Under the pieces are notes generated by a model. The model worked only from the letters and a program-made list of their open reading frames with translations. It had not been told where the DNA came from and did no database searches. Both the position numbers and the translations under genes were made by a program. This document shows positions 17,393 through 26,554 of a stretch of 34,951 nucleotides of DNA, piece after piece (position 1 is the stretch's first letter; the number at the start of each line of letters is the position of its first letter). The stretch comes from Chloroflexi bacterium ADurb.Bin180. GTDB taxonomy: Bacteria; Chloroflexota; Anaerolineae; UBA2200. The stretch spans positions 1 to 34,951 of the forward strand of contig MWCV01000002.1 in the NCBI GenBank assembly GCA_002070215.1, written 5' to 3'.

Positions 17393-18434
17393 GAATCTCC
17401 TCCGTCGGCTGGCGTTGTGCCTTGTCCTGATCGGCTTCCTGGCGGCCTGCCGCCAGGAGACACCAGCAGAACCCCGCACTGAGATGGTCAGTTTTCGCAG
17501 CGATATGAACCTCGGCAAAGAGATCCTGGCGGTACGGCGAGAGGACACCGACAGCGACGGGGCTGACGAATGGCTCGTATTCTACCGCTTTGACCAGGTA
17601 GGAACGGGCGGGCCGGTAGCGGCCATCATCTATGACGCAGCAGTCGATACTGCGCTGCAGCTCCCCGTGCTTTATCCGTTCAAGCTGCGCATACCTGACC
17701 AAAGCTATCTCGCCACAGAGGTGCCCGGCGTCACTCTGGTCAACATCCTCACCGAGGGCAGCGGCAAAGCGCTGAACGAACTGGTGTTTAGCACCGAGCA
17801 TGAGCTGGCCATCTTCCGCCTCAGCCGCGATCCGGCGATGCCGCCCACCGACAACCCGCCGCTGTACCGCTGCGTGGGCTTTTTCCGCAGCGATCGGGTG
17901 TCCTTCGACCCGGTCTCGTTCCAGGTGGTGGTGACCAGCTTTGCCGGCTTTGAGCGCAGCCAACTCGTGACCAAGCGCTACTACAAACCTGACAACTCGG
18001 CCAGTGCTGATGGCTACTTTGTCGCCGGCACCACGGCGTTGCTCAGCCCCTACGATTATGAGGTGGACTTTCGGGAGCCAGTGAACGAAAAGATCCTAGA
18101 CACGCCCTTTCCCGAAAAGATCCTTCTGGCCTTTTATCAGAGTCTGGGGCAGGCTGATGCGAAACCGCCCGCTGCGGACTATCTGAGCACCCAGGCGGCG
18201 GGGGAATTCAGGGCGGGACGACTGCGCTTTGGCTCGCCTTTCGGCCAGGAGCAGATCAAGCGAGCCACGGTCAAGCGCATCAGCTACTTTCCCACCCAGG
18301 AGTCCGATACTACTGCGCGAGTGATTGCCGAGGTGGTGTTCACGTCGCGGGCCGGGCAGCAGAGCAATCCGATTGAGGTGACCTGGGATCTGCAGAGGGT
18401 TGAGAACCACTGGAAACTGCACGCCCTGGAGTAG
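17358..18434 (+). CDS. Lipoprotein of unknown function, overlapping lon
   Basis: The 358-residue protein starts at the ATG at 17358, inside the 3' end of lon. Residues 1-31 form a lipoprotein signal ([10 protein letters not shown], Cys31). After it, residues about 45-80 ([26 protein letters not shown]) resemble an FG-GAP-like or calcium-loop start ([10 protein letters not shown]). The C-terminal ~90 residues ([19 protein letters not shown], ending [18 protein letters not shown]) look like an NTF2-like or immunoglobulin-like fold ending in a W-x-L-x-x-L motif. I cannot name a function. Overlap with lon suggests coupled translation, so its level may rise with protein stress. The 3' end overlaps the opposing rsmD reading frame by 95 nt. 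Confidence 0.75.
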
Positions 18435-19005
18435 CAGTCACTGACTGAGGCCCGGGCGGACGCGCCTCATAAAAGCAGAGCATTGTACTGCCGTACTTGC
18501 GCTGATCAGACAGTTCGAGTTGCGACAGGTCGACCGCTTCATACTCCCGCGGATGGATCTGCGCCACAACCAGCCCACCCTCCGCCACCACTGACGATCC
18601 ATCCAGCAACTGCAGCGTACGCCGCCACAGTCCCTTGTACTGCGGGGGCGCGACATAGACAATATCGAACGCCTCCCCCTGATAGCTCTCGAGGAACCTG
18701 AAGACGTCGCGCCGCACAACCTGAGCGACAGAACCGAGTCTGGTCAGCTCGAGATTGCGACGAATCGTGGCCAGAGCACGCTCGTTGCGCTCGACGAATA
18801 CCGCCAGTGCAGCCCCACGGCTCAGCGCTTCGATGCCTATTCCCCCTGTGCCGGCAAAGAGATCCAGGAACCTGGCCTCGGCCACGCTGTCGCCCAGAAT
18901 GTTGAACAGCGAAACCTTGACCCGGTCGGTCACGGGCCGTGTCGAGTCGCCGGGAACAGCGTACAGCCTGCGCCCCTTGGCCTGACCGGTGACTACTCGC
19001 ATCAT
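18340..19005 (-). CDS. rsmD: 16S rRNA (guanine966-N2)-methyltransferase RsmD, divergent
   Basis: A 221-residue Rossmann-fold methyltransferase. Family marks: RVVTGQAKGRRL at the N-terminus, RPVTDRVKVSLFNIL near 23-37, and the S-adenosylmethionine loop FLDLFAGTGGIGIEA at 46-60. The amino-methyltransferase motif, normally D-P-P-[FY], reads APPQY at 119-123. The recognisable fold ends near residue 182. About 35 residues of Pro/Ser/Ala-rich sequence follow, of which the last ~31 are encoded within the opposing lipoprotein gene. The start codon overlaps the stop of the acyltransferase gene as ATGA, so translation is coupled. Confidence 0.86.
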   Translation of the reverse strand: MMRVVTGQAKGRRLYAVPGDSTRPVTDRVKVSLFNILGDSVAEARFLDLFAGTGGIGIEALSRGAALAVFVERNERALATIRRNLELTRLGSVAQVVRRDVFRFLESYQGEAFDIVYVAPPQYKGLWRRTLQLLDGSSVVAEGGLVVAQIHPREYEAVDLSQLELSDQRKYGSTMLCFYEARPPGPQSVTATPGRAVSSGSQPSADPRSPQSDCSAARPAT

Positions 19006-19706
19006 CCACCGGCCCCGGTCACGCCTGGTTCAGGACAGGAGACGGTGTAGTCCTCTACGATGGGCATGCCGGCATAGCATCCGTGGTACACCGCCGGCAG
19101 CAGGCTGGCAATGCGCAGCATCATCTCGTCACTGATGGCCTGCCTGACCTCATGGGTCATTCGCCCCGTGATCGGTCTCAGGCAGAAAGGCGTGCCCACC
19201 ACCATAGTGACCTTTGTCCGGCGCAAACGCTTGAGATTCGGCAGCAGTTTCTCCTGACCATAGACCGCGATCGGCACCACCACTGTCTGGGGGACTTTGG
19301 ACAGCACCAGGGCCACTCCTGGTCTGGCGCGCAGCAGGCGGCCGTGGTGGCTGCGCGTGCCCTCAGGCGCGACACCCAGCGCTCCCCCATCTCGCAACAC
19401 CCCAACAGCCAACTTGATGGCATTCAAGTCCATCTCGCCGCGGTGCAGCGGGATCGTGCCCCAGGCCTCAGCAATCAGTCGGGTGATCAGATGGTCCCAC
19501 AGTTCCACTTTGCCCAGGGCGGAGATTGGGCGCGGCAGAGTGATATAGAGCAGGAAGGGATCGACAAAGCTGATGTGGTTGATGACCACCAGCACCGGGC
19601 CCTTGCGGGGCACACGCTCCACCCCGCTGATGTCCGTCCGCAGTATTACCTTCCCGATGAGTTTGATTACCTGTTTGGCTGTCCAGCCAACGATTCTCAA
19701 TAGCAC
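19002..19706 (-). CDS. 1-acyl-sn-glycerol-3-phosphate acyltransferase (PlsC-type)
   Basis: A 234-residue membrane-associated enzyme that adds the second acyl chain to make phosphatidic acid. The catalytic block NHISFVD (His44, Asp49) and the phosphate-binding block PEGTRS (Glu115-Ser119) are intact, in contrast to the acyltransferase-like gene at 12317. Start: the reading frame extends up to 19907, but that part lies inside the glycosyltransferase gene and has a Cys/Gly-rich nonsense-like composition. A GTG at 19706 with AGAGG 6 nt upstream is preferred. It lies 34 nt after the glycosyltransferase stop, and its own stop overlaps the RsmD start, so the three genes form one unit. Confidence 0.87.
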   Translation of the reverse strand: MLLRIVGWTAKQVIKLIGKVILRTDISGVERVPRKGPVLVVINHISFVDPFLLYITLPRPISALGKVELWDHLITRLIAEAWGTIPLHRGEMDLNAIKLAVGVLRDGGALGVAPEGTRSHHGRLLRARPGVALVLSKVPQTVVVPIAVYGQEKLLPNLKRLRRTKVTMVVGTPFCLRPITGRMTHEVRQAISDEMMLRIASLLPAVYHGCYAGMPIVEDYTVSCPEPGVTGAGG

Positions 19707-19740
19707 TGCTTGCCTCTGTCCAGAGCCTCGAACGAGTCCT

Positions 19741-20646
19741 CTACTTGGTGCTATTGACCCGTTGCCACAATGTCGCAAAGGACCGCTTGCGCAGCCTGAC
19801 ATCCCACCACACGCGCAGCCACACGTGCAGTCGGGCAGCGAAAAGCAGTAAGGTCCACCACAGCTCTCTGGGCCCGCGGGCGAACTCGAGCGCGGCCATC
19901 GTGCCATCCAGCGCCTCGCGCCTCAGAGACCTCATTCCGCGCGCGGCGTGAACATAGTTCTGCGCATAGCCGCCCACTGAGCGAATCTTCTGTTTCATCC
20001 AATCGCTGTAGGTTGACGGATACTTGACATAGACCACCGCATCAGGCGCGTAGGCAGTGCGCAAACCCTGCTCCGCTATGCGGTGCGAGATCAGGCCGTC
20101 CTCGGCCAGTGAATCCTCGGGTATGTCGCTGACCAGACTGCGGCGGAAAGCGTAAAGGTATCCCGAGCTCTCAAAGAACTCGCCACTGGCCGAACGCAGG
20201 CTGCGCTGCCGATGCGCCCCCGCCTCAACCAGCAGGTGCGACCAGTAGCCGAGCATGGTATCGCGCGGGCTGATCGATACCGGCCGGCCACTGGCGATGC
20301 CGACCGCAGGATCTGCAAACGGCGTGAGCAGAGCGGGTACAGCTCCATCGCCCACGTACACGTCCCCGTCCGTCAAGACCAACAGACCGCCTCTGGCTTC
20401 TTTGAAGGCCAGGTTGAGCGCCGCGGGTTTGCCCCGACCTTCATCGCGAAGGCAGCGCACTGCCGGGCACTCAGCTTGCACGGCGGCAGCCACAGCCGCC
20501 GTGGCGTCGTCAGGGCAGACCACCAGCAGCTCCCAATCATCGGGCAGCGGCTGCCCGATCAGGGCGTTGATAGCTCGCCCCACGGTATTCTCTTCGCGGA
20601 AGGCCGTAACGACGATCGTTAGCACTCTGGAGAGTTTAGCACACAT
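19741..20646 (-). CDS. Glycosyltransferase family 2
   Basis: A protein of about 301 residues. The N-terminal GT-A fold shows TIVVTAFREENTVGRAINAL (residues 10-29), a DEGRGKPAALNLA segment near 68, the metal-binding DGD at 93-95, and an ED pair in SLAEDGL further on. The C-terminus is rich in Trp and hydrophobic residues (ELWWTLLLFAARLHVWLRVWW), suggesting attachment to the membrane. Such enzymes transfer sugars to lipid carriers or glycans for envelope polysaccharide or glycolipid synthesis. The ATG at 20646 is chosen because the frame further upstream runs through a terminator hairpin; it has only a weak ribosome site. Next to a PlsC enzyme, a role in glycolipid synthesis is plausible. Confidence 0.82.
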   Translation of the reverse strand: MCAKLSRVLTIVVTAFREENTVGRAINALIGQPLPDDWELLVVCPDDATAAVAAAVQAECPAVRCLRDEGRGKPAALNLAFKEARGGLLVLTDGDVYVGDGAVPALLTPFADPAVGIASGRPVSISPRDTMLGYWSHLLVEAGAHRQRSLRSASGEFFESSGYLYAFRRSLVSDIPEDSLAEDGLISHRIAEQGLRTAYAPDAVVYVKYPSTYSDWMKQKIRSVGGYAQNYVHAARGMRSLRREALDGTMAALEFARGPRELWWTLLLFAARLHVWLRVWWDVRLRKRSFATLWQRVNSTK

Positions 20647-20707
20647 CAAGAGGCGCACCAACCTGCCTGGCCACAGCGTTCGTTCAATCCGCCGAAGCCA
20701 ATAACGC

Positions 20708-20743
20708 CAAGAGCCCCCGGGCCTGGCGGCGCGGGGGCTCTTG
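20708..20743 (-). terminator. Hairpin terminator after the deoxynucleoside kinase pair
   Basis: A perfect 12-bp GC-rich stem (20708-20719 with 20732-20743) with a 12-nt loop lies 14 nt after the second kinase stop on the minus strand. The following bases (GCGTTATTGG on the minus strand) hold only a few T residues, so it may act as a partial terminator before the glycosyltransferase gene. Confidence 0.6.
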
Positions 20744-20756
20744 CTCCAGAACACCC

Positions 20757-21392
20757 TTAGTCGAAGACGACTACTTCCTTTCCCGACAGCTTGTCGACAA
20801 TCTTGGCTGCGATCAGCTCCATATGCGAGTTGTACTGAACAAAGTCCAGATTGTCAGCAGGGACGGTAAGAACTGGGCAGAGCGAGAAACGGTCGATCCA
20901 CTCCTCGTAGAGTTGGTTTAACTGTCCCAGGTATTCGGCCGACACCTGGCGTTCAAAATCCCGGCCACGTTTGCGAATGCGCTTGATGAGCACCGGTACT
21001 GAGGCCCGCAGATACACCACCAGGTCAGGTGGCGGCAAGAATAACCTCATAGCAGTGTAGAGCTCACGATAGGTGCGGTAGTCTCGCTCGGACATGTTGC
21101 CCTGGCGAAAGAGGTTCTCCGCAAAGACCTCCGCATCCTCGTAGACACTGCGGTCCTGTACCACCGTCCCCGGTCGATCTAGTATCTGGCGATGGTGCCT
21201 CAGCCGACGAGAGAGAAAGAACACCTGAGAGTGAAAACTCCACTGCTGCATATTCGCGTAAAAGTCGGCCAGGTATGGATTGTCATCCACTGCCTCGTAG
21301 AAAGGCTCCCAGGCCAGCTTCTCAGCCAGCATGGCCGTCAGGGTGGACTTGCCAACGCCGATGTTGCCGGCGACAGCTATGAACTTTTTCAC
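20757..21392 (-). CDS. Deoxynucleoside kinase, deoxyadenosine/deoxycytidine-kinase type
   Basis: A 211-residue salvage enzyme that phosphorylates deoxynucleosides at the 5' position. The P-loop GNIGVGKST is near the N-terminus. The substrate motif is DRSVYEDAEVFAENL. A lid with RKRGRDFE lies near 155, and QQWSFHSQVFFLSRRL near 55 is family-typical. The DRS-YED form resembles the Bacillus dAdo/dCyd kinase rather than the deoxyguanosine kinase. The GTG start at 21392 overlaps the upstream kinase stop as GTGA. The site AAGGGGGAGG lies within the end of the upstream gene. Tandem, coupled kinases of this type form heterodimers in some Firmicutes. Confidence 0.88.
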   Translation of the reverse strand: MKKFIAVAGNIGVGKSTLTAMLAEKLAWEPFYEAVDDNPYLADFYANMQQWSFHSQVFFLSRRLRHHRQILDRPGTVVQDRSVYEDAEVFAENLFRQGNMSERDYRTYRELYTAMRLFLPPPDLVVYLRASVPVLIKRIRKRGRDFERQVSAEYLGQLNQLYEEWIDRFSLCPVLTVPADNLDFVQYNSHMELIAAKIVDKLSGKEVVVFD

Positions 21393-22426
21393 GCCTCCCC
21401 CTTCTCGGATTCGACTCCACAATCTTCTCGAATCCGCGCCAGGTAGGCATCCTCCAGACTGATGCCCATGCCGTTGGCCAGCCTGAGGAGGCCGGCCAGC
21501 GAGCCAGCCAGATGACCTTTCAGCACTGTGGCCCGATCCTGAAGGGCGCGGGTCTGCGCCTCGTTGCGATTGCCCACTTGCTGCACCAGTCGGTCTTCAA
21601 CTTCCCAGGCTTTGCCCAGCTCGGTAGCCAGAGCGCCAAGCTGCGCCTGCAGAGACAGGAACTGGTGGTACACGTCCCTTTCCTCGCCCTCGTCCTTATC
21701 CGCGGCACGGCGCCAGGACTGCAGGTCGCTCAGCCGGCGCCTTCGGCCCTCGAGAATGGCCCGGCCACGCTCCTTCGCCGGAGTCTCCACCTCCAGCAGC
21801 GGTCGCTGGTAAGTCCCCGTACCCAGCGCCGACCGAATGCGTTCGATCACCGATGCAAGGTCGGCCGCATTGCGCACGATATTCAGCTCGGAAGTGTCGA
21901 TGGTCAGAATGGGGGTCTGGGTGTAGGTGGAGAAGAACTTGTCGTAAGCGGCGGCAAGGTCCGCCAGATAGCCGCGCGACATGGCCCGCTCGTAAGTGCG
22001 GTCGCGAATGGCGATCCTTTCGAGCAGCACGTCGAGGTTAGCCCGCAGGTACACAACCAGGTCGGGCAGAGGGATCTTTTCAGCCAGGACGGAGTGCAGC
22101 GTGGTGTAGACGGCCAGCTCGTCCTTGGCCAGGTTCAGCCGTGCAAAGAGCTCATCTTTGGCAAAGGTATAGTCGCTCACCAGCGAGCAGTGCTGCAAGA
22201 CGCGCGCAATCACCTCATGTTGCTGGCGGTAGCGGCTCAAGAGGAAAAAGATCTGCGTCTGAAAAGCGTACTTGGCCCGGTCGGCATAAAAGTCACTCAG
22301 GAAGGGGTTCTCCTCAAAGACCTCTAGCAGCAGCTCTGCGCCGAGTTCCTTGTGCAGGATTCGGGCGAGAGTGGTCTTGCCCACGCCAATGGGACCTTCA
22401 ACGGCGACATAGTACCTTTCGGGCAC
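21389..22426 (-). CDS. Deoxynucleoside kinase (deoxyguanosine-kinase type) with C-terminal MazG-like extension
   Basis: A 345-residue protein, much longer than the usual ~210. Residues 1-205 are a complete kinase: P-loop GPIGVGKTT (11-19), FEENPFLSDFY, AFQTQIFFLLSRYRQ, DYTFAKDE (85-92, the form seen in deoxyguanosine kinases instead of DRS) and a lid with RDRTYERA. A charged linker (about 212-250) leads to a helical part (252-335). Its end, LLRLANGMGISLEDAYLARI, closely resembles the last helices of MazG-like nucleotide pyrophosphohydrolases. The acidic metal ligands expected before that helix are not evident (GHLAGS instead). The GTG start at 22426 follows GGAGGAGGG. First gene of its operon. 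Confidence 0.84.
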   Translation of the reverse strand: MPERYYVAVEGPIGVGKTTLARILHKELGAELLLEVFEENPFLSDFYADRAKYAFQTQIFFLLSRYRQQHEVIARVLQHCSLVSDYTFAKDELFARLNLAKDELAVYTTLHSVLAEKIPLPDLVVYLRANLDVLLERIAIRDRTYERAMSRGYLADLAAAYDKFFSTYTQTPILTIDTSELNIVRNAADLASVIERIRSALGTGTYQRPLLEVETPAKERGRAILEGRRRRLSDLQSWRRAADKDEGEERDVYHQFLSLQAQLGALATELGKAWEVEDRLVQQVGNRNEAQTRALQDRATVLKGHLAGSLAGLLRLANGMGISLEDAYLARIREDCGVESEKGEA

Positions 22427-22670: not shown

Positions 22671-23282
22671 ATGGAGCAGGAAGGACAGTGGGTCCAGGCG
22701 GCGCTGGAAGGTGACCAGCACGCCTTTGGCCGACTGGTGGATGCATACAAAGGACCTGTGTACAACATCTGTTTCCGTATGCTGGGGAACCAGGCTGATG
22801 CCGAGGATGCAGCTCAAGAGACCTTTGTCCGCATCTACACTCGGCTCAGATCCTATGACCCTCAGCAGAGGCTGTCTTCGTGGATCCTGGCTGTCGCCTC
22901 GCACTATTGCATTGACCGACTACGACGCCAGCGCATCAAGTGGTTTTCTCTCGACGACCTGCTTCCGGTCCAGGAGCTGCAGGATGAGGCAGACCAGCCC
23001 GAGACGGTGTTGCTGCAAAGCGAGCGCACCAGCGAGGTACAGTCATTGCTTCAGTCTCTGCCTCCCGAATATCGCCTGGTGATCGCTCTGCGGTACTGGC
23101 ACGACCTTTCCTATGAGGAAATTGCCAAGACGGTCGGCGCGACCGAGAGTGCGGTCAAGTCCAGGCTGCATCGCGCCAGAGAGATGCTGGCCCAGCAGGC
23201 TATGGCCAGGAGACTGCCAGTAGTCCGGCAGGATAGCGCTCGCTGCAACGGAGAGAGGGTGATAACCAATGTCGTGCTCTAG
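22671..23282 (+). CDS. ECF-type RNA polymerase sigma factor (SigW/RpoE-like)
   Basis: A 203-residue sigma factor. Region 2 is at about 8-90 (FGRLVDAYKGPVYNICFRML, then DAEDAAQETFVRIYTRL, then SSWILAVASHYCIDRLRR). Region 4 is at about 125-180 (LPPEYRLVIALRYWHDLSYEEIA, then TESAVKSRLHRAREML). It has the typical two-domain ECF layout. AGGAG lies 7 nt before the ATG. The anti-sigma gene starts 14 nt before its stop, and a membrane protein follows, so the three genes form one operon for envelope sensing. It is a different lineage from the sigma factor at 1196: the region 4 sequences share only general features. Confidence 0.92.
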   Translation: MEQEGQWVQAALEGDQHAFGRLVDAYKGPVYNICFRMLGNQADAEDAAQETFVRIYTRLRSYDPQQRLSSWILAVASHYCIDRLRRQRIKWFSLDDLLPVQELQDEADQPETVLLQSERTSEVQSLLQSLPPEYRLVIALRYWHDLSYEEIAKTVGATESAVKSRLHRAREMLAQQAMARRLPVVRQDSARCNGERVITNVVL

Positions 23283-23823
23283 ATGGAGCGAATGGATGTC
23301 GCTGCGGCTGGACGGGCTGCTGACTCAGGAGGAGGAGCTGGCTCTCCAGACTCACCTGGGGTCCTGTCAGGCATGCCAGGAGCAGTGGGAGGCCATGCTA
23401 TGGACATCTTCTCTTCTGGCGACGGAGCTCGCCGCCGTACCGCCGAGCACCTTTGCCGCCAGGGTGCAACACCTACTCCAGCAGCGAAAGCTTGGCCGTC
23501 AGCGCGCCATTGGAGTTCTCAAGGTATGTTTGGGTTCGGTTGGCGCGTGGAGCGCTGCCGCGGTCGTTGCAGTGGTAACGGTGGCCGCCCTGTGGACTCC
23601 GGCGCGGATCCTGGCCGTTGACCTCGGAGTTCCGCTTCTCGCCGACGCACTTGCGTTCACCACAATGTTCGCCCGGGCAGGACTGTCCGGACTGAGGGCT
23701 CTCTGCACCACTTCTACCGCGGTGACCCTGTTTGGCTACACCGGTCTGGCCATTGCCCTGACGGCCAGTTGGGTGATTGTTGTGGCGCGATTTCGCCACA
23801 GTATGGCTACGGATTCGGACTAG
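23269..23823 (+). CDS. Anti-sigma factor with zinc-finger (ZAS/zf-HC2) domain
   Basis: A 184-residue membrane protein. The N-terminal cytoplasmic domain has the zinc motif H29-x3-C33-x2-C36 (HLGSCQAC) after a helix with EEELALQ, the standard fold that clamps ECF sigma factors. Two hydrophobic segments follow, at about 90-110 and 150-173, so the region between them (about 111-149) would face outside or be re-entrant. The start overlaps the sigma gene by 14 nt, giving stoichiometric production. In this family, cleavage of the membrane part or redox loss of zinc releases the sigma factor; which applies here is not visible. Confidence 0.87.
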   Translation: MSCSRWSEWMSLRLDGLLTQEEELALQTHLGSCQACQEQWEAMLWTSSLLATELAAVPPSTFAARVQHLLQQRKLGRQRAIGVLKVCLGSVGAWSAAAVVAVVTVAALWTPARILAVDLGVPLLADALAFTTMFARAGLSGLRALCTTSTAVTLFGYTGLAIALTASWVIVVARFRHSMATDSD

Positions 23824-23832
23824 GAGACTGGA

Positions 23833-24840
23833 ATGAGAAAGCCACTGGTACTGCTTCTTGCCGTCGTTTTGTTTGCTGCCTCGGGCATCACCGTTTGGGC
23901 CGACGATGGTGATGGTCAGGCCGTGCTTCCCGGTCAGAATGTAGTTGTCAGACCGGGGGAAGTGATGCGCGGCGACCTGGCCGTCATCGGCGGCGACCTG
24001 GAGCTGCAGCAGGGTGGGCGAGTGAACGGCGACGTAGTTGTGCTTGGTGGCGGCGCCGTCATCGATGGCGAGATCGATGGGAACCTGGCCGTGCTCGGTG
24101 GGACGGTCGACCTGCGCTCTCACGCCCGGGTGGGCGGCGACCTGTTCACCCTGGGGGCTACGGTCACGCGCGATCCTGCTGCCATTATCGAAGGCCAGAC
24201 GGTCGAGTCCTTCCGCGGCCGCTTGCCCCGGCTGCCCGAGATTCCTGAGAATCCCGACTGGCAGCCGACAGGGCCCCTGCCACGCAGCTACTGGGAGCCG
24301 GCCGATATCCTTGGCCGTTTCATTGGCTTTGTGCTCAGTACGATGGCCATGATCGCTCTGGGAATACTGCTGGTGATGCTGCTCCCCAGACCAACTGAGA
24401 CGGTCGAGGCTGCTGTGGCCGGAGCCTTCATACCCAGCCTCGCCCTGGGCGTTCTGACCTTTCTTGTCCTGATCGTCCTGGTGCCGCTGCTCATTCTGAT
24501 CTGCATCGGCATTCCGGTCGCGGTATTGTTGGTAATGGCCGCTGTCGCCGCTGCCGCCTTCGGTTGGTCTGCTGCCGGCATCTGGCTCGGGCGGCGCCTG
24601 CTCACCCAACTAAAGGGCCAACCTCAGCCTGTCATCGCGGCTGTCATCGGCATCACCGTGCTCACGGCCCTATCGCAGCTTCCCTGCCTGGGCTGGATGC
24701 TGGGCGCGGTGACCGGCGCTGCCGGACTGGGCGCAGTTGTCCTGACCCGCTTCGGCACAGCACCATACCCGCGACCTACCGCTCCGGTCACACCTCTCGA
24801 ACCGCCACCCCCCGTGCCCGGTGAGTCAACGGGTCTCTAG
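23833..24840 (+). CDS. Membrane protein with bactofilin-like polymer-forming domain
   Basis: A 335-residue protein. A signal peptide (1-23, ending VWA) is followed by a beta-helix of short GD-[LV]-x-V-x-GG repeats at about 40-115 (GDLAVIGGDLEL, GDVVVLGGGAVIDG, GNLAVLGGTVDL, GDLFTLGATV), as in polymer-forming cytoskeletal proteins (bactofilin type). A Pro-rich linker (130-155) leads to four or more membrane helices from 161 to 304 and a Pro-rich tail. Here the repeat domain would lie outside the membrane, unlike true bactofilins. The ATG follows TAGGAG, which overlaps the anti-sigma stop. Its place in the operon suggests it is a target or sensor of the sigma system. Precise function unknown. 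Confidence 0.78.
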   Translation: MRKPLVLLLAVVLFAASGITVWADDGDGQAVLPGQNVVVRPGEVMRGDLAVIGGDLELQQGGRVNGDVVVLGGGAVIDGEIDGNLAVLGGTVDLRSHARVGGDLFTLGATVTRDPAAIIEGQTVESFRGRLPRLPEIPENPDWQPTGPLPRSYWEPADILGRFIGFVLSTMAMIALGILLVMLLPRPTETVEAAVAGAFIPSLALGVLTFLVLIVLVPLLILICIGIPVAVLLVMAAVAAAAFGWSAAGIWLGRRLLTQLKGQPQPVIAAVIGITVLTALSQLPCLGWMLGAVTGAAGLGAVVLTRFGTAPYPRPTAPVTPLEPPPPVPGESTGL

Positions 24841-24969: not shown

Positions 24970-25377
24970 ATGTTCAAGTTTGCCTCTGATGAATGGGTCC
25001 AGGCGCTCAAGCAAGCCATCAACTCCAGCCCTGCCTATGCCGAGGCAGCCAAGACGTGGGAAGGCGATTTCTACTTCATCGTTGAGCCAAGCGGTCCCGT
25101 CGTCCAGGAACTGGTGATGTACATGGACCTCTGGCACGGCGAGTGCCGCGAGGCCCAGACGTACCCCGACCGCAGCGCGAAACAACCCGCCTTTGTGATC
25201 AGCGCCCCGTTGCCGGTCTGGCGCAAGGTCATCGACAAAAAGCTGGACCCCATCCAGGGAATGATGACTCGTCAGATCAAGCTGCAGGGCGACATGGTCA
25301 AGATCATGAAAGCGGTAAAAGCGGCCAAGGAACTCGTGGAGTGTACCACCCGTGTGCCCACGCAGTTTCCCGAGTAG
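24970..25377 (+). CDS. Small SCP2-like (sterol carrier protein 2 fold) protein
   Basis: A 135-residue soluble protein without signal peptide. The pattern [34 protein letters not shown], then [40 protein letters not shown], matches the SCP2 fold seen as a stand-alone domain in many bacteria: beta strands, then a G-x-L-x-x-x-G helix-forming end around LQGDM. Such domains bind hydrophobic ligands such as fatty acyl chains. AGGAGGGTGAG precedes the ATG. The alcohol dehydrogenase gene starts 16 nt downstream, so it is the first gene of a three-gene operon. A role in presenting a lipophilic alcohol or aldehyde to the two enzymes is a guess. Confidence 0.7.
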
Positions 25378-25393
25378 CCGGTAGGGGCTGGCG

Positions 25394-26554
25394 ATGTGGT
25401 ACTTTAACAGTCCCCTGGTCGTTTTTGGCGAAGATGCCCTGAACGAACTGGTAGCCATCCAGGGTCATCGCGCCTTTGTGGTCACCGATTCGACGCTCCT
25501 CAAGCTCGGTCATGTGGACCGGGTCACTGCCAGGCTCAAAGAGGCGGGGCTAGAGGTGCGCGTCTTTGCGGAAGTGGAGCCCGATCCGTCGCTCGAGACA
25601 GTGAAGCGTGGCGCCGCGCAGATGGCCGACTTTGGTCCGGACTGGATAGTCGGGCTGGGCGGCGGCTCCTGCATGGATGCCGCCAAGGCGATGTGGGTGC
25701 TCTATGAGCATCCGGAGATGGTCCCTGAAGAGATCAACCCGGTGGTTCCTCTGGTTCTGCGCCAGAAGGCCCGGTTGATCACCATTCCAACCACCAGCGG
25801 CACCGGGGCCGAAGCCACCTGGGCCATCATTCTCACGGACACAGCAGAAAACCGCAAGCTCGCTCTGGGCTCACGAGAGAACATGGCTGACATCGCCATC
25901 GTTGATCCGGTATTCGTCGCCGCCTTGCCACCGCAGGTGACCGCCGATACCGGCATGGACGTCCTCACCCACGCGGTCGAAGGCTACACCACGAGCTGGC
26001 ACAACGATTTCTGCGATGGCCTGTGCCTCAAAGCAATTCAACTGGTCATGGATTACCTTCCCCGGGCCGTTCTGGTCGGCACCGATCCGGAGGCCCGCGA
26101 ACGAATGCACAACGCCGCCACCATCGCCGGGTTGGGCTTTGGCAACGCGCTCGCAGCAATGGCACATGCGATGGGCCATTCGCTCGGAGCGGTTTTTCAC
26201 ACCCCCCACGGCCGGGCTGTTGGGCTGGTGCTGCCCTACACCGTCGAGTTCACCGGGCTGACAGCGCCAGACCGCTACGCGGACATTGTACGGTTTCTCG
26301 GGCTCGGCGGCTCGGTCGCTGATGCGCCACGGCTGCTGGCCGAGCGCATACGGTCCCTGGCGCGCGAGATTCGGCAACCGCTGTCGCTCCAGGATGCGGG
26401 CATCACGAGAACCCAGTTTGAGGCTGCCCTGCCGAAACTGGTGCAGAACGCCGAGAACGACGCCACCCTCGTGGCCAGCGCTCGTATCCCGGACAGTGGC
26501 GAGCTGTCGCGACTCTACGCTTGTGTGATGGAAGGGCGGGCAGTGGATTTTTAG
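25394..26554 (+). CDS. Iron-containing alcohol dehydrogenase (group III)
   Basis: A 386-residue NAD(P)-dependent enzyme that interconverts alcohols and aldehydes. The cofactor loop [14 protein letters not shown] spans residues 88-101, and [13 protein letters not shown] (130-142) is a family block. The likely iron ligands are Asp189, His193, His258 and His272 ([14 protein letters not shown] and [18 protein letters not shown]). Their spacing agrees with lactaldehyde reductase FucO. TAGGGG lies about 7 nt before the ATG. It lies 29 nt upstream of the aldehyde ferredoxin oxidoreductase, which suggests an alcohol-aldehyde-acid route with ferredoxin and NAD as partners. The alcohol itself cannot be deduced. 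Confidence 0.92.

Follow-up and report, generated by a model that had tools for sequence, protein, structure and literature searches.

The C-terminal extension of a deoxynucleoside kinase from Chloroflexi bacterium ADurb.Bin180 is most plausibly a maintained pseudo-enzyme of MazG type that serves assembly, a reading to which we give a probability of roughly 0.6; the ancestor would have been bifunctional, and the kinase here would still be active. The domain now probably holds the enzyme together instead of cutting nucleotides. We infer a regulatory or assembly role for this tail from the purifying selection that acts on a degenerate domain. The window, i.e., the whole stretch of 34,951 nucleotides that was analysed, comprises positions 1 to 34,951 of the forward strand of MWCV01000002.1 (GCA_002070215.1), and the features of the kinase genes within it are listed in Table 1.

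Table 1. Positions in the window of the two kinase genes, the domains of the fusion protein and its former metal-ligand positions.
Feature	Position	Strand	Basis
Fusion gene: deoxynucleoside kinase and degenerate MazG-like domain, 345 aa, GTG start	21389..22426	-	
Kinase domain, residues 1-204	21815..22426	-	PF01712 1.8e-39, invariant columns, alignment to solved kinases
Linker, residues 205-231	21734..21814	-	low model confidence except short helix 217-225
Degenerate MazG-like helical bundle, residues 232-335	21422..21733	-	profile E=1e-26, pLDDT about 95, VIA matches
Q262, metal ligand 1 position (Glu35 of SSO3215)	21641..21643	-	profile alignment
A265, metal ligand 2 position (Glu38 of SSO3215)	21632..21634	-	profile alignment
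H305, metal ligand 3 position (Glu54 of SSO3215)	21512..21514	-	profile alignment
G308, metal ligand 4 position (Asp57 of SSO3215)	21503..21505	-	profile alignment
Second deoxynucleoside kinase, 211 aa, GTG start	20757..21392	-	PF01712 7.3e-56

The kinase domain and the second kinase

The first-pass annotation had described the first gene of the pair as a kinase fused to a MazG-like domain and about 135 residues longer than its family. The reading frame given there is exact, and both statements agree with our results. PF01712 (dNK) matches residues 8-199 of the fusion protein with E=1.8e-39 (136 bits, against a cut-off of 27), and about 140 extra residues lie C-terminal to the kinase domain of this 345-aa protein, while kinase 2 totals 211 aa. 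The P-loop GPIGVGKTT (G11-T19), the catalytic E35 and the LID arginines R141, R143 and R147 are conserved among 69 aligned relatives. The DRS-type motif, a common trait that lies outside the definition of the PF01712 profile, is absent; kinase 1 has S84-D85-Y86 instead, with D85 and Y86 invariant among relatives (residues 84-87 with D-Y instead of D-R-S, window 22166-22177, minus strand). The deoxyguanosine kinase of Bacillus subtilis likewise has A-D-Y, and the D-Y motif may be a deoxyguanosine-kinase-like subfamily trait. The nearest solved relatives by sequence are the deoxyadenosine kinases (dAK) of Giardia (8puu) and Mycoplasma (2jas/2jaq), and the same proteins are nearest by fold. Foldseek matches listed for the whole-protein model were kinases alone, with Giardia dAK 8puu as the best structural match, and the tail was therefore predicted and searched separately.

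The stop of the fusion gene and the GTG start of kinase 2 share four nucleotides (GTGA), and a Shine-Dalgarno-like stretch, GGGGGAGG, lies immediately upstream of the kinase 2 start, so that the two kinases are very likely translated together. A second kinase also follows closely behind the fusion gene in many relatives; it is not adjacent in one large clade, whose fusions are mostly intact (L024, L086, L095, L105 and others). No consistent pattern between ligand loss and a missing adjacent second kinase was seen when the two were compared by eye.

Three consecutive genes run divergently from the kinases at 22671-24840 (plus strand) and encode an ECF sigma factor, a zf-HC2 anti-sigma-like protein and a protein that is probably exported and matches bactofilin weakly; an SCP-2 sterol-transfer-like protein and an iron-containing alcohol dehydrogenase follow at 24970-26554 (plus strand). 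Downstream of the kinases and on the same strand (18340-20754, minus) are genes for an RsmD-like methyltransferase (PF03602), an acyltransferase and a family 2 glycosyltransferase.

The tail is a MazG-superfamily domain

The resemblance to MazG had been noted from LLRLANGMGISLEDAYLARI, residues 313-332 of the fusion protein. In direct searches, the window tail alone gave no significant Pfam, NCBIfam or PDB sequence match, because it is degenerate. The link is instead provided by intermediate sequences. A profile built from 61 fusion tails with intact metal sites, and with no sequence from the window's family, matches the window tail with E=1.1e-26, and none of 993 shuffled tails matched this profile at E<=10. 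The tails of relatives read LTEEVGELA...EELADVLAYLLKLANYAGIDLEAAYLEKM..N..R.W, and 41 of 46 match PF03819 (MazG), the best with E=1.5e-8; an HMM search of the tail, as the first-pass annotation had proposed, thus fails in Pfam directly and succeeds through the intact relatives. Compared with solved proteins, the profile of these relatives' tails matches SSO3215 (1vmg, 1.2e-10) and a Bacillus MazG protein (5ie9, 4.3e-9), followed by YpjD (2gta, 2.1e-8) and dCTPase (4.7e-8). A weak match to the sigma-D family PRK11718 (E=0.027) was taken as chance. An in-frame tail uninterrupted by stops is present in the order mate and throughout the six-member family of the window; together with the profile match and the shuffled controls, this argues that the tail is neither a chance sequence nor read-through.

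The predicted fold supports the MazG assignment without proving it; the proof lies in the chain of sequences. AlphaFold models the tail as a helical bundle with pLDDT around 95, both in the whole protein and alone, and its placement relative to the kinase is not confident (pTM 0.67). In VIA comparisons of the tail model, MazG-type proteins rank first (5ie9, Z 10.6; YpjD 2gta, Z 10.5; 1vmg, Z 9.8 with rmsd 1.8 over 82 residues), although a Z near 10 is not decisive, as helical bundles reach such scores by chance more easily. A chance resemblance to MazG, with the tail in fact a linker or a helical bundle of other descent, is very improbable. The silence of the direct searches and the weak Foldseek E-values for the tail model (best 0.04) would suit such an origin, but the intermediate sequences tie the tail to MazG decisively, and the top structural matches are MazG-type proteins. 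The two observations that could have overturned the MazG proposal, a structure unlike the MazG bundle or a non-conserved linker among homologues, were not made: the predicted tail is MazG-like and its sequence is conserved.

Loss of the metal site

The metal ligands of SSO3215 are Glu35, Glu38, Glu54 and Asp57 (PMC2954211), and alanine at each of the equivalent residues of Mycobacterium tuberculosis MazG (Glu119, Glu122, Glu138 and Asp141) strongly lowers activity, while single ligand mutants retain some of it (PMC10014863). In the window protein these four positions (E, E, E, D) read Q262, A265, H305 and G308, i.e., four of four are lost. The earlier suspicion that the ligands were missing had named GHLAGS (residues 304-309) only, which replaces the ExxD region; the other acidic motif is gone as well, with EExxE replaced by AQLGA at 261-265. 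Given the absence of the EExxE...ExxD ligands, we do not class the window tail as an active MazG enzyme. The equivalents of further residues that are near-invariant in intact tails (H239, K246, N255, E261, K315, D323, K331, N335 and R338) are all changed too.

Among 84 distinct Anaerolineae fusions, pooled from both searches described below, EEED is kept in 61 and at least one ligand is lost in 23. Two or three ligands remain in 7 of these 23, and these seven may still be active, since the M. tuberculosis single mutants are partly so. The same partial activity could be invoked for a window tail that still acts as a pyrophosphohydrolase through other residues, but with all four ligands gone together we regard this as highly improbable. 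Degeneration affects every one of the six proteins in the window's family, and the order mate too. The ligands that remain vary between these proteins, which looks like stepwise decay. In the window's family, pyrophosphohydrolase activity should therefore be gone, and the kinase should still be active.

The polar losses also bear on whether the bundle could sense a ligand, binding a nucleotide without hydrolysis and tuning the kinase allosterically. Feedback control is well known for deoxynucleoside kinases, and here a nucleotide-binding fold is joined to a nucleotide-salvage kinase. However, replacement of the metal ligands and of the other near-invariant polar residues makes triphosphate binding in the ancestral pocket unlikely, and we consider ligand sensing improbable.

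Selection on the degenerate tail

Between the window and a relative of the same genus, dN/dS is 0.079 for the tail and 0.069 for the kinase, and the corresponding values for the pair L003/L004 are 0.058 and 0.032. As dS is 1.0-1.4 in these key pairs and thus near saturation, the exact ratios are rough, but neutrality (a ratio of 1) is still far off. The segments L-DLQ-W, LLRLAN and LE-AYL of the tail are invariant across the six family proteins. Low dN/dS and invariant segments together indicate a constrained pseudo-enzyme, and, judged from these sequences, the degenerate tail is maintained by purifying selection. Of the positions conserved in intact tails, 13 of 20 nonpolar and 6 of 19 polar ones are kept, a borderline difference in this unbiased comparison (p=0.056). 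Another contrast between core and pocket was set aside as partly circular, as its core had been picked from residues unchanged in the window.

Even though the tail is constrained, degenerate lineages evolve faster in this domain than intact ones, with a median tail/kinase dN ratio of 2.1 compared with 1.3. Shortened remnant MazG tails occur on the same kinase in L028 (a 284-aa kinase ORF on the minus strand) and L113 (1129-2382, plus strand), apparently as intermediates between a degenerate tail and none. On the maximum-likelihood tree of the kinase domain, tailless kinases are nested among tailed ones, with about 8 changes between the two states. Faster evolution together with shortened or absent tails fits gradual dispensability and speaks against the assembly reading: the domain might be an evolutionary relict, a former enzyme that is being lost and has no specific role beyond stabilizing the folded chain. 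Against this stand the dN/dS of 0.06-0.08 in degenerate tails, a frame that is open in every family member and the invariance of LLRLAN and LE-AYL, and we consider a relict unlikely, if less so than ligand sensing.

Distribution and evolutionary history

Of 60 relatives searched, 23 gave a full-length match, among them the order mate and every one of the six members of the window's family, and the order-level search gave the full-length fusion in 7 of 7. Among 251 genomes sampled across the phylum Chloroflexota, full-length matches are limited to the class Anaerolineae; two matches in other Chloroflexota classes end at the kinase or the linker, and no full-length match was found in phages. Where the first-pass annotation had suggested looking for the fusion in other Chloroflexota, it is thus present across Anaerolineae, with intact ligands included. 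Intact and lost metal sites, mapped on the same kinase tree, require about 13 changes; strongly supported branches make 6-7 of them unavoidable. As the intact site is the state of the superfamily, these changes were taken as losses. No stand-alone gene matching the fused-tail profile lies near the kinase in any locus examined, so the unfused versions are seemingly not split genes.

Apart from the fusion, the window's genome has another MazG gene, which matches PF03819 strongly, and a loss of activity in the fusion need therefore not harm house-cleaning. Compensation by other MazG genes shows no clear pattern; nearly all relatives have a separate one, whether their fusion is degenerate or not. 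Tentatively, and at somewhat less than even odds, the bifunctional kinase-MazG enzyme is an invention of the Anaerolineae whose cleaving half has repeatedly and independently turned non-catalytic while still controlling the kinase pair.

A proposed path from bifunctional enzyme to assembly domain

The ancestral form, which is still the commonest one in Anaerolineae, was probably a bifunctional enzyme. In its intact members deoxynucleosides would be phosphorylated to dNMP by the kinase, and some (d)NTP would be split into dNMP and PPi by the MazG domain. Loss of the four ligands and of most other conserved polar residues in the window's family would have left the pyrophosphohydrolase dead and the kinase live. 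The helical bundle would be retained through self-association, as in MazG folds, and may join dimers of kinase 1, perhaps with the co-translated kinase 2 as well, into a larger assembly that would set the affinity or stability of the kinase. MazG-type proteins are dimers or tetramers, and the catalytic pocket of MazZ is situated at the interface of two chains. Giardia dAK is a tetramer due to its N- and C-terminal extensions, above all the C-terminus, and removal of both raises KM about 50-fold (PMC11662666). We prefer kinase assembly as the role of the tail based on the helical core that is left, the multimers of MazG proteins and this precedent.

Making dNMP by salvage and removing dNTPs by pyrophosphohydrolysis are opposite steps of dNTP metabolism, and the intact fusion would join them in one polypeptide. 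Both parts belong to known families; for the fusion and its repeated decay we found no report in the open-access literature, although the architecture may be listed in protein databases. Within the single class Anaerolineae the domain occurs in states that run from intact through partial and full ligand loss to a shortened or missing tail, and this natural series lends itself to studying the timing and causes of the change from enzyme domain to scaffold. The same series is suited to a test of assembly as the means by which additional C-terminal domains adjust deoxynucleoside kinases, as has been reported for Giardia.

Comparison with known systems

With the non-TK1-like deoxynucleoside kinases (PF01712; M. 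mycoides dAK, Giardia dAK) the window protein has the kinase domain, P-loop, catalytic Glu and LID arginines in common, but it adds a MazG-derived domain and carries an invariant D-Y where solved members such as the M. mycoides relative have D-R. With the all-alpha NTP pyrophosphohydrolases of the MazG/YpjD/SSO3215/dCTPase (DCTPP1) branch, the tail has in common the sequence profile, the predicted helical bundle, the positions of both acidic motifs and the LLxLAN-x-GIDLExAYxxKM segment. It differs from that branch in that the fusions place the domain behind a deoxynucleoside kinase, and in that ligands are replaced in the window's family, with none of the four left in the window's genus, and the C-terminal N..R residues of this family are lost. 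The tetrameric deoxyadenosine kinase of Giardia intestinalis (8puu) is a precedent for terminal extensions that alter oligomer state and substrate affinity, although the Giardia protein is eukaryotic and its extensions are short tails with no MazG fold.
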